DNA of 50,284 bases from an uncultured Roseiflexus sp. (GTDB lineage: Bacteria; Chloroflexota; Chloroflexia; Chloroflexales; Roseiflexaceae). The stretch's first letter is position 1, and each line of letters starts with the position of its first letter. Below the pieces are notes generated by a model that worked only from the letters and a program-made list of their open reading frames with translations, was not told the origin of the DNA and did no database searches. Where the stretch lies: positions 1-50,284 of the forward strand of contig CALGYB010000048.1 of the NCBI GenBank assembly GCA_937935075.1. The letters are read 5' to 3'. This document shows, one piece after another, positions 39,763 through 42,886 of this stretch. Both the position numbers and the translations under genes were made by a program.

Positions 39763-39964
39763 GCCTTCCTCTCGTTCCGCACTTCGCCAGCGCAACTCTC
39801 TGCGCGGTATTGTACCACGCTGCGGGATTTATGGCGGCTGTTCCCACATGCGGGTGCGAGTGGAACAATTGCTCACCGCCGAGGTTCTCGACAGGCGCCA
39901 ATGAATAGGGTCCGGTCTTAGTGGATCGATCACCCAAAACCTGGACAATCAAGGACGTGGAGCA

Positions 39965-40001
39965 GCGGACGTTGGCTGAGCCTGTCGAAGCCAACGTCCG
40001 C
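39965..40001. repeat. 13-base-pair perfect inverted repeat
   Basis: GCGGACGTTGGCT (39965-39977) and AGCCAACGTCCGC (39989-40001) flank GAGCCTGTCGA. The centre contains CTGAGCCTGTCGAAG, a short palindromic sequence that I recall from intergenic repeats in many unrelated bacteria. It sits in the ftsY/lipoprotein spacer. Confidence 0.8.
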
Positions 40002-40243
40002 CGCAAGACGGTCAACACGGGCGAGTATTGTGCAACATGCGATTGATCGCTCTATTGGATGGCTCCAACCGGTCGGCGCGGAGGAGGGGAGAGAGGACCG
40101 GTCCGAGACCGGACGCGGGGGTGGGTCTGAGACCGCTCCCCTACTTGTTTTTGCACAGTCTTCATGGTATAGTTGAAATGGGTCTGCACAGGTTTTCCCA
40201 TTTCGACGATCAGAGGAATTGCACACATGAGGCCACTGCAAAG

Positions 40244-40335
40244 AGGCTTAACCACAAAGGAACAAAGCGCACGAAGGTGAATATAAACACGAAGCGCATT
40301 TCCTTTGCGTCCCTTTGTGACCTTCGTGGTTACTT
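40244..40335. repeat. Imperfect inverted repeat with ACCACAAAGG / CCTTCGTGGT ends
   Basis: AACCACAAAGG near 40250 and CTTTGTGACCTTCGTGGTT near 40313-40331 are imperfect inverted copies around an A/T-richer centre. The right arm resembles CTCTGCGCCTCTGTGGT (about 19229) and CCTTGGCGTCTTTGCGGT (10414-10431). Non-coding, directly upstream of the small lipoprotein gene. Confidence 0.6.
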
Positions 40336-40374
40336 TTTGCAGTGAAGTCGCACATCAGAAGGGAGAGGAGTCAC

Positions 40375-40722
40375 ATGCTGCGACACGTCAAGCGCCGCGG
40401 AGTGGCGCTCATTGCCGGCATCGGTCTGGCGCTGAGCATTGCCGCGTGCGCGAGCCAGGCGAAGGTGCAGGAACAGCCGTTGTTGAACCAGTTGATGGCC
40501 CCCAATGGTTTCGTTATCCAGCAACCGGCGACGAACCAGACTGACATGAACACGACCCTTCCGTTCGACCGCGTCGAGCAGGCGCCCGCCATACTGGCCG
40601 GTGAGGGACAGGTGACGTTCGACCGCGTCGAGCAGGCGCCTGCCGCCGCTCCGGCTGGCGAGTCGCAGCGTGCGATGGATGCAAAGCAGAACACCGCCGT
40701 CCACATGGGGTGTGGGAAGTGA
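40375..40722 (+). CDS. Small lipoprotein with an internal repeat
   Basis: A 115-residue putative lipoprotein. The signal is GVALIAGIGLALSIAAC with the lipobox Cys at about residue 25. The rest is hydrophilic and probably disordered, with an 18-residue duplication starting FDRVEQAPA; the DNA TTCGACCGCGTCGAGCAGG occurs at 40564 and 40618. A single Cys lies near the C-terminus. GAGGAG with six bases' spacing supports ATG 40375. No family recognised. Confidence 0.65.
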   Translation: MLRHVKRRGVALIAGIGLALSIAACASQAKVQEQPLLNQLMAPNGFVIQQPATNQTDMNTTLPFDRVEQAPAILAGEGQVTFDRVEQAPAAAPAGESQRAMDAKQNTAVHMGCGK

Positions 40723-40978
40723 GTGAGGAGTGAAGCGCGAGGGCGGCAACCGTTAGATGAGGTTGTCGCTCTTGTTTTCAAGGATATCTTGGATTCGAGA
40801 ACCAAGAACTGATACTCATGTGCGGTCATTCGTGCAATACCACCGGTGCGCGCGGCGAGACGCCAGGGCGCTGCGGGCGAAAGCCCTCGCTGAGGACGCA
40901 GTTTGACCATACTCACTGCAGGCGGTTCGACAGTGCTCCCGCACGTGCAAGCCACGCTGGGGCTGCTGATGCCGAGGC

Positions 40979-41231
40979 GTCGTGGATTGTTACGCCTTAC
41001 GAACCGGGCGCTCGAACGTCTTGTCTGACTGGCCGCACGTTCGTATGAGAATATCATCCGATATCGCCCGGTAAAGCCCGCGCAGGCGGGCTTGTCAGGC
41101 GTAGCCCGAGGCTTCAGCCGCCGGGCAAATTGAGGTTGCTCAGGCCAACTGCAGTCCACGACACGCCTGCTAGTGTGCATTGACCATTCTGCCTTGCGCA
41201 ACAAACATGCGAACATCTTGTCTGACTGACT
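40979..41231 (-). repeat. Dispersed repeat, modules A and B in swapped order
   Basis: Module A, as its reverse complement, is at 40979-41031 (GAACCGGGCGCTCGAACGTC, TTGTCTGACTG). Module B, also inverted, is at 41047-41126 and contains the 8-base-pair hairpin AAGCCCGC-GCAG-GCGGGCTT (41074-41093). A second partial A is at 41209-41230. Compared with 2050-2198 the module order is reversed. The rest of 40723-41477 shows no convincing gene. Confidence 0.75.
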
Positions 41232-41477
41232 GCAAGCTGGTATAGGATGCCTGCTAAACACTCTACATCCGTGAGGAAGGAAGTGTAAAGTCACTTACTC
41301 GTAGCCGGGATGCCGGTGCTCGCAATTGGGTGATAAAGCGCTTGATCGCGCCAGAAACCGACCTTTGTAGAAAAGGGAGAGCAGCAATCGTCTGTGGAAC
41401 ACTGAGGATGATTTGTTCAGCAGGCTCGCAGATATTGTCTGGATCTGTAGTTTGGGGATAACCTGGAGACCGAGCGC

Positions 41478-42698
41478 ATGGACGATAACCCGCTCATCAG
41501 AATCTGTGCTGATATACAGAAGGAAATAGACCGGCTTTGGCAACGCGAAAAGCAACTGACTGATGAATTGCAATGGTATCGCAGTACTAAACCCGCTGCG
41601 CTGGTCGATGATCAACAGAAAAGCGAGGCGGCAGCAGAGCAATTGCAACTAGAAATTCAGGCTCTGGATCACGAAATTCAGGAAAACAACGCCCGACTCG
41701 ACGAACTTGCGCCTGCAATCGGAACACTTTTCAACCCTTTCAACTGGTTTGCGAAGGAACAGGTCGCTCTTCGCCGCGAGCGTCGCCAACTGCGTGAGAT
41801 TGGTCATCAGAAGGATACACAAAGGCAGTTGAAGACAAGAGAACTGGAAACGACTCGCGCTCGAATCGTGCAAATTACCACCGATCTTCAACGGTATCAC
41901 ACATTCGACTTTGCTGAACGACAACGCGAACTCCTTCAGGTCAAAGATAAACTGCACCATGCTATCGACCGTAAGCGTCGAGTAGAGGAAGTGCTCACGC
42001 CGCTCGTTAGCGAGATGCAAACGCTCGAAGAAAGAAAGCGCCGGGTGGAAGCGGATCTCAAAGCCGCTCAGGATTTTGAACAGCGACTTTCGCACGCTAG
42101 AAGCTCCTCCGAACGCGCAAGAATTCATGAGCAGTGCGGCAATAGGTTTGGCGAAAGTAGTCCACGGACGGTTATCTTCGAACGCCAGAAGGAACTCCGG
42201 CAACTGGAGCGTGACTACGAAAAGGCAAAGCGGCGAGTTGAGGACGTTGCTGCAAAGGCTGCCCGCAGAATCGACACGATTGTCATTGATGGCAACAATC
42301 TTTGCTACGAGAGAGGCGCTTTTATCGGATTAAACGCGCTCGAAGCACTATTGCCCTTGCTCTCGCAAACCTACTCGGTTGTTGTTGTGTTCGACTCTGC
42401 CATCCGCAGACTTCTAAGCACCGATAATGCCGGACTTCAGAAACGGCTGGGCGCTCATGCAAAGGTGCATATCGTTGCCTCCAAACGCCAAGCTGATGAG
42501 ACGATCCTCTCGTTGGCGGACGCAAATGAGTTTGCCTATGTGCTTAGTAATGATCGCTTTGGGGACTTCAACGAAAAGTCAGCCGTGAAAGGCGGACGGA
42601 TCATTCGGCACGAAATTGTCGAAGGGAATATCTTCGTACACGATCTGCAACTGAAGGCGACGTACAGGCACGCAGCAGGTCAAGAAGCGCGCCGCTGA
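41478..42698 (+). CDS. Coiled-coil protein with C-terminal NYN/PIN-like nuclease domain
   Basis: A 406-residue protein. Residues 1-265 are heptad-rich, highly charged helices (for example LQLEIQALDHEIQENNARLDEL), broken by a short hydrophobic patch IGTLFNPFNWFAKEQ near residue 82. The C-terminal 135 residues fit a NYN (PIN-fold RNase) domain: IDTIVIDGNNLCYERG with the first acidic residue, VVVVFDSAIRR, KRQADETILSLADA and YVLSNDRFGDF with further Asp residues. An RNase is therefore likely but untested. Two 60-base samples are 45 and 50 percent G+C, against 70 percent in a lysine-operon sample, suggesting acquisition. GGAG precedes the ATG. It is isolated, with repeats on its left. Confidence 0.8.
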   Translation: MDDNPLIRICADIQKEIDRLWQREKQLTDELQWYRSTKPAALVDDQQKSEAAAEQLQLEIQALDHEIQENNARLDELAPAIGTLFNPFNWFAKEQVALRRERRQLREIGHQKDTQRQLKTRELETTRARIVQITTDLQRYHTFDFAERQRELLQVKDKLHHAIDRKRRVEEVLTPLVSEMQTLEERKRRVEADLKAAQDFEQRLSHARSSSERARIHEQCGNRFGESSPRTVIFERQKELRQLERDYEKAKRRVEDVAAKAARRIDTIVIDGNNLCYERGAFIGLNALEALLPLLSQTYSVVVVFDSAIRRLLSTDNAGLQKRLGAHAKVHIVASKRQADETILSLADANEFAYVLSNDRFGDFNEKSAVKGGRIIRHEIVEGNIFVHDLQLKATYRHAAGQEARR

Positions 42699-42752
42699 AC
42701 CGGCTGCCTGACGGGGTTGACGTATTGGTTTAGAGGAGTTTGTCGCTTACTC

Positions 42753-42774
42753 ACGCAACCCCGACAGGTTGCGT
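42753..42774. other. Stem-loop after the NYN gene
   Basis: ACGCAACC (42753-42760) and GGTTGCGT (42767-42774), perfect 8-base-pair stem, 6-base loop. No T-run follows, so termination is only possible, not supported. Confidence 0.5.
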
Positions 42775-42862
42775 TATCGGATGGATACGTAGCAGAGACG
42801 ATATAAGCGTCGCGCACCGGGGAGTTTACCAACGGATTAGTGTCAGAGTGAGTCTGAGCCGA

Positions 42863-42883
42863 GGGCAGGTCTCTGACCTGCCC
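42863..42883. terminator. Hairpin between convergent NYN and def genes
   Basis: GGGCAGGT (42863-42870) and ACCTGCCC (42876-42883), perfect 8-base-pair stem with loop CTCTG, ending just before the def stop. Its place between converging genes suggests a bidirectional terminator, but neither side has a real T-tract. Confidence 0.4.
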
Positions 42884-42886
42884 TTG

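Follow-up and report, generated by a model that had tools for sequence, protein, structure and literature searches.

How did a gene for a predicted ribonuclease (RNase) come to stand among housekeeping genes in a single Roseiflexus genome, and what might it do there? The question is raised by a contig of an uncultured Roseiflexus sp. (Chloroflexota; GenBank assembly GCA_937935075.1, contig CALGYB010000048.1, positions 1 to 50,284), whose whole stretch of 50,284 nucleotides is referred to here as the window. An open reading frame (ORF) occupying exactly 41478-42698 on the + strand (406 codons, ATG start) encodes a long coiled coil followed by a NYN nuclease domain, and is called CC-NYN hereafter. 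We consider it fairly likely that this gene was acquired horizontally and belongs, as a stand-alone member, to a family of coiled-coil-NYN ribonucleases serving as effectors of anti-virus defence. The window copy is best read as an RNase effector against viruses that is latent and probably under the control of its coiled coil. At the level of the family, a role as defence effector is well supported by gene context. An earlier note, made from the sequence of this stretch alone, had proposed a defence or stress effector, and it is the family context (JukA operons, viperin prophages and type I restriction loci) that speaks for this proposal, while the window copy itself stands alone. The defence reading of the window gene is only partly supported, because of this isolation, because its RNase activity is a prediction, and because the repeats upstream of it also occur at the same site where the gene is lacking.

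Partners of the family in other genomes

JukA is a sensor of early phage proteins that is paired with diverse effectors (review, PMC13282480), so that an effector reading is natural for homologues linked to it. Among 30 homologue loci examined after gene calling, JukA lies directly upstream of CC-NYN, on the same strand, in all 13 members of one clade. It was identified with the PADLOC JukA profile in two loci (L036, E 1.5e-62; L038, E 1.1e-54), and elsewhere by similarity to these two proteins, supplemented for Pseudomonas by the PADLOC profile. The 13 linked loci form a single clade with moderate support (86/88), which is the largest of the family and is found mostly on chromosomes or large contigs, and the JukA label needs two changes on the tree, as opposed to about ten in shuffles. 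Strong JukA matches occur in 8 of 11 NYN-carrying Pseudomonas genomes and in 16 of 288 without NYN (n=299; Fisher p 7e-8, an optimistic value because of near copies among the Pseudomonas loci). In a control set of 15 JukA loci lacking CC-NYN, a different gene mostly lies downstream, frequently one of about 300 aa.

The linked loci share a gene order: a helix-turn-helix (HTH) gene in most, then JukA, usually a mini-protein with a single transmembrane (TM) segment, then CC-NYN. The gap between JukA and NYN, usually of about 200-250 bp, holds in 11 of the 13 loci a conserved, unannotated ORF of ~45 aa with one hydrophobic segment (hydropathy 1.7-2.6), for instance in L057 and, upstream of 9770, in L037. 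Its ratio of nonsynonymous to synonymous substitution (dN/dS) is well below 1, indicating purifying selection; L054 does not have it, and in L064 the reading frame is broken. This mini-protein is confined to JukA-linked loci and is the only conserved small partner that was seen. One further locus (L067) keeps the HTH-JukA-mini-protein module and lacks NYN, an indication that the mini-protein goes with the JukA module rather than with the nuclease. A recurrent cassette is also found beside JukA-NYN (L037:11225-15121, L054:9339-13160, L056-L060 and L063), consisting of a radical SAM protein, a PHP (histidinol-phosphatase-like) protein, a ~376-aa protein without Pfam match and a capsular-synthesis-like transferase.

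These loci resemble Juk (jumbo phage killer; JukA plus a variable effector such as JukB), since CC-NYN takes the effector position after JukA in 13 of them. They differ from it in the mini-protein, for which no annotation was found, and the window copy has no JukA; in addition, no Juk model of PADLOC 2023 is matched by any of 14 CC-NYN members tested for kinship with JukB, Juk effectors being said to be diverse (PMC13282480).

As the earlier note had suggested looking for, homologues do lie near defence genes, and not only with JukA. On two phage contigs (L047 and L049), CC-NYN sits between the head and tail modules and is followed by viperin (NF038283, E 1e-85 and 1.5e-83; pVip, E 1.6e-84), and on a third, phage-like contig (L048) it adjoins a related tape-measure region. 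In Aliidiomarina (L033), it follows hsdR and ends a type I restriction-modification (R-M) operon, hsdM-hsdS-(312 aa)-RhuM-hsdR, with JukA about 3 kb off on the other strand, beyond transposase-like ORFs. PrrC-like RNases sit in hsd/RhuM operons as well (PMC3710099), a likeness that concerns this one locus and not the window; unlike PrrC and RloC, CC-NYN has a NYN instead of a HEPN nuclease, and no ABC-ATPase domain according to Pfam. A Schlafen-group-3 helicase gene stands next to CC-NYN, in divergent orientation, in L035. Two solo copies have a hydrophobic protein encoded upstream (L048:6908-7621; L041:1978-3546). Both proteins match the PADLOC candidate PDC-M09A weakly and may be membrane partners replacing JukA. 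A second protein that looks NYN-like by eye lies near CC-NYN in two unrelated loci (L034:8553-9257 and L062:9371-10066).

Nuclease domain and coiled coil

Does the window protein look like a working nuclease? RNase_Zc3h12a (PF11977) matches residues 266-382 with 26.8 bits against a gathering score of 23 (E 4.7e-6), NYN being the only Pfam domain above cut-off in the protein. The nearest folds in the PDB are KHNYN (8wzc, Z 12.1) and MCPIP1 (Regnase; 3v34, Z 11.8), which superpose on the domain with a root-mean-square deviation of about 3 Å over 121-126 residues. Both came from a second-look structural aligner, Foldseek having returned no convincing full-length match in the PDB and a viral library, and KHNYN was also the sole protein matched when a profile of the domain was searched against the PDB. 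The acidic motifs pointed out in the earlier note (DGNN, FDS and SNDRFGDF) are all present, with every catalytic acidic residue intact. D271, G272, N274, D306, D340 and D359 are unchanged across 14 homologues, though these are only 23-47% identical to the window protein, so that none of the catalytic Asp residues, whose loss would have spoken against the proposal, is missing. Homologue pairs have dN/dS of about 0.13-0.32, indicating purifying selection. CC-NYN shares its nuclease fold and catalytic motifs with KHNYN and Regnase-1 (MCPIP1), but lacks their KH or zinc-finger parts; its N-terminal region is a coiled coil of about 260 residues. According to PMC11685948, KHNYN is a cofactor for ZAP, an antiviral protein.

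The coiled coil of about 265 residues that had been proposed to precede the domain is borne out by an AlphaFold2 model, computed with the 14 family members as input alignment (mean predicted local distance difference test, pLDDT, 90.2; predicted template-modelling score, pTM, 0.60). Helices are predicted at residues 5-36, 39-81, 93-142, 145-205, 210-224 and 229-261; the alpha/beta domain comes next and reaches to residue 395. The best conserved stretch outside the nuclease (residues 207-231) is, judging by its conservation, a possible regulatory hinge. Weak PADLOC matches to the SMC-like proteins of Lamassu and Wadjet (LmuB, JetC) are confined to the coiled coil; kinship with SMC, Lamassu or Wadjet proteins was rejected, the PADLOC, NCBIfam and PDB profile matches over residues 1-260 being those of a generic coiled coil, and no ATPase head or domain flanks it according to Pfam.

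Foreign origin, insertion site and rival explanations

The gene was found only in the window genome among 60 searched (its own and 59 relatives), and a family profile detected it in 1 of 301 Chloroflexota genomes, again the window's own. Both flanks are kept in all five genus mates, with a gene for a 115-aa lipoprotein-like protein upstream and peptide deformylase downstream, and the NYN gene is absent from each of them, so that it was acquired into a housekeeping region after the split from the sampled genus mates. Taken together, these comparisons clearly point to horizontal acquisition rather than vertical inheritance within Chloroflexota. Vertical inheritance with housekeeping neighbours, which the earlier note had named as a finding that would refute its proposal, holds for the neighbours (an ftsY-type SRP54 GTPase, peptide deformylase and a protein of the aconitase family) and fails for the inheritance. 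The note was also right that the gene is poorer in G+C than its surroundings, although its hand counts (45 and 50 against 70 percent) exaggerated the gap: G+C is 51.6% (52.6% at third codon positions, GC3), the lowest among 38 window ORFs, against a window mean of 61.6%.

The inverted, mobile-looking repeats described upstream of the gene are real and dispersed, but they also occur at this site where it lacks the gene: inverted fragments of the 40797-41252 repeat sit in the corresponding intergenic space of at least two gene-free genus mates, and the repeats are therefore no evidence of carrying the gene. As a transfer vehicle they were rejected for this reason, and no direct repeats flank CC-NYN; comparison within the genus indicates that they are a feature of genus and site. 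Together with the blocks at 39924-40055 and 40224-40349, they belong to several intergenic families, partly palindromic, that are multicopy in the genome and the genus. The small lipoprotein-like gene (40375-40722, + strand), conserved in the genus, has no Pfam match and contains an internal 29-bp direct repeat. A scan for promoters and terminators around CC-NYN gave nothing clearly above shuffles. Coordinates are collected in Table 1.

Table 1. Features of the CC-NYN gene and its insertion site (window positions).
Feature	Position	Strand	Basis or remark
CC-NYN gene, 406 aa	41478..42698	+	ORF, translation, full-length homologues
GGAG, likely ribosome-binding site, 9 nt before ATG	41465..41468	+	Sequence
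Codons of residues 5-261, long helices, coiled-coil region	41490..42260	+	AlphaFold2 secondary structure
Residues 207-231, best conserved stretch outside nuclease	42096..42170	+	Near-invariant A207, S210, E212, H217, C220, P229
NYN RNase domain (predicted), residues 265-395	42270..42662	+	Pfam PF11977; structure match KHNYN, MCPIP1; domain profile
DGNN motif, catalytic D271 and N274	42288..42299	+	Invariant in 14 homologues
D306 of FDS motif	42393..42395	+	Invariant in homologues
D340-E341 (ADE motif)	42495..42500	+	D340 invariant, E341 nearly so; aligns with DD of KHNYN
D359 of SNDRFGDF	42552..42554	+	Invariant; aligns with SND of KHNYN
Lineage-specific stretch; five genus mates hold about 0.4-1 kb here, no NYN gene	40755..42886		Flank searches, local BLAST
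Dispersed repeat blocks upstream of gene	40797..41252		Dozens of genome sites, both strands
Further dispersed repeat blocks upstream of gene	39924-40055; 40224-40349		Many genome copies, both strands

Outside Chloroflexota, full-length homologues of the same architecture are found, among the matches listed, in Pseudomonadota, in Occultella (Actinomycetota), and in one acidobacterial and one Balneolota metagenome-assembled genome. Others are carried by 18 Pseudomonas plasmids, one Acinetobacter plasmid (a partial match) and three IMG/VR contigs; none was found in INPHARED phages, nor in E. coli genomes by a DNA search with one betaproteobacterial member. Could such a gene be an RNA-processing or decay enzyme, comparable to Rae1/YacP or to Regnase-type NYN proteins, with a role in mRNA turnover or host stress rather than in virus defence? 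The fold is also similar to Rae1/YacP (Z 9.3) and to PRORP-type RNase P, and the neighbours in the window are housekeeping genes; in contrast, the gene is missing from all near relatives and has a patchy distribution throughout (2 of 369 gammaproteobacterial genomes, query genome included, and 4 of 401 of the Comamonas family, two query genomes included), and neither transport as prophage cargo nor adjacency to JukA would be expected of a housekeeping RNase, which makes this explanation unlikely.

NYN and PIN toxins are common, and the gene might alternatively encode the toxin component of an addiction or toxin-antitoxin module by which its carrier element is stabilised, as could be thought from the conjugative megaplasmids that account for 12 of the 19 plasmid matches and from the VapBC-like pair adjoining CC-NYN in L032. 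Solo copies have no conserved small cytosolic partner, though: no conserved antitoxin gene was found beside them (an RNA antitoxin was not specifically sought), and the sole conserved small partner of the family is the single-TM protein of the JukA-linked loci. The window copy has no convincing small TM partner either, only a weak 43-aa ORF upstream (41330-41461) whose hydropathy of 1.39 is below TM level. A toxin of this kind is accordingly improbable. Superinfection exclusion by mobile elements against competing phages or plasmids would fit the three phage-like contigs (L047-L049) and the megaplasmids, but is very unlikely given the JukA-linked and mostly chromosomal largest clade, and differs from prophage-borne defence mostly by its beneficiary.

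The window copy, its possible mechanism and meaning

How far can the defence reading be carried over to the Roseiflexus gene? On the tree, the window copy groups with L032, L040 and L033, in the part of the family where JukA is not adjacent (support 84/85), so that it must be triggered either through its own coiled coil or by a partner whose gene lies elsewhere in the genome. Several observations weigh against the antiviral reading. No defence gene lies beside the window copy, and no JukA was found in its genome with family PDLC04111, a wider JukA alignment giving only short matches at the zinc-ribbon end (best E 0.0028). Solo copies on Pseudomonas megaplasmids have plasmid-gene surroundings without clear defence partners. 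Since the relatives come from capped scans, the context counts are small, with four Pseudomonas loci being near copies, and a pTM of only 0.60 leaves the placement of the coiled coil relative to the nuclease uncertain. In the literature consulted, no RNase, toxicity or phage-protection assay was found for any CC-NYN member. For the solo copies, the effector reading is an extrapolation from the JukA-linked clade.

For an antiviral effector, the following sequence of events can be envisaged. The long antiparallel helical region would keep the NYN domain inactive, or dispersed; in the branch linked to Juk, JukA would recruit or release the RNase at the phage entry site, where the single-TM mini-protein perhaps anchors it; the active RNase would then cut phage or host RNA and block phage propagation. 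All of these steps are inferred: that RNA is cleaved, that the coiled coil inhibits the nuclease, that JukA or some other trigger releases it, and that the outcome is beneficial against phage. The window copy may work like DS-3 (DefensePredictor), a single-protein PIN-type RNase proposed to be auto-inhibited and to have no antitoxin (PMC13092281). A bolder and rather doubtful version would make the JukA-less branch a one-protein antiviral system, in which infection is sensed by a long antiparallel coiled coil that switches the KHNYN-like RNase; in Pseudomonadota, the same RNase would have become part of a Juk subtype of four genes (HTH, JukA, single-TM mini-protein and CC-NYN) that brings it to where the phage enters.

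The NYN RNase fold and the principle of JukA plus an effector are known. The CC-NYN family, its pairing with JukA and the mini-protein, and its viperin and R-M contexts were not found in PADLOC 2023, NCBIfam, PHROGs or the literature consulted on NYN and antiphage defence, while the original Juk paper may already list the JukA-NYN pairing. One uncharacterised effector family would in this way join three lines of prokaryotic immunity, namely Juk, prokaryotic viperin and type I restriction loci, and its nearest solved nuclease, KHNYN, acts in human antiviral RNA decay. It also yields a Juk subtype that can be tested directly, whose effector is an RNase and which includes a conserved mini-membrane protein missed by annotation, and suggests that such effectors can work alone once moved to other phyla.
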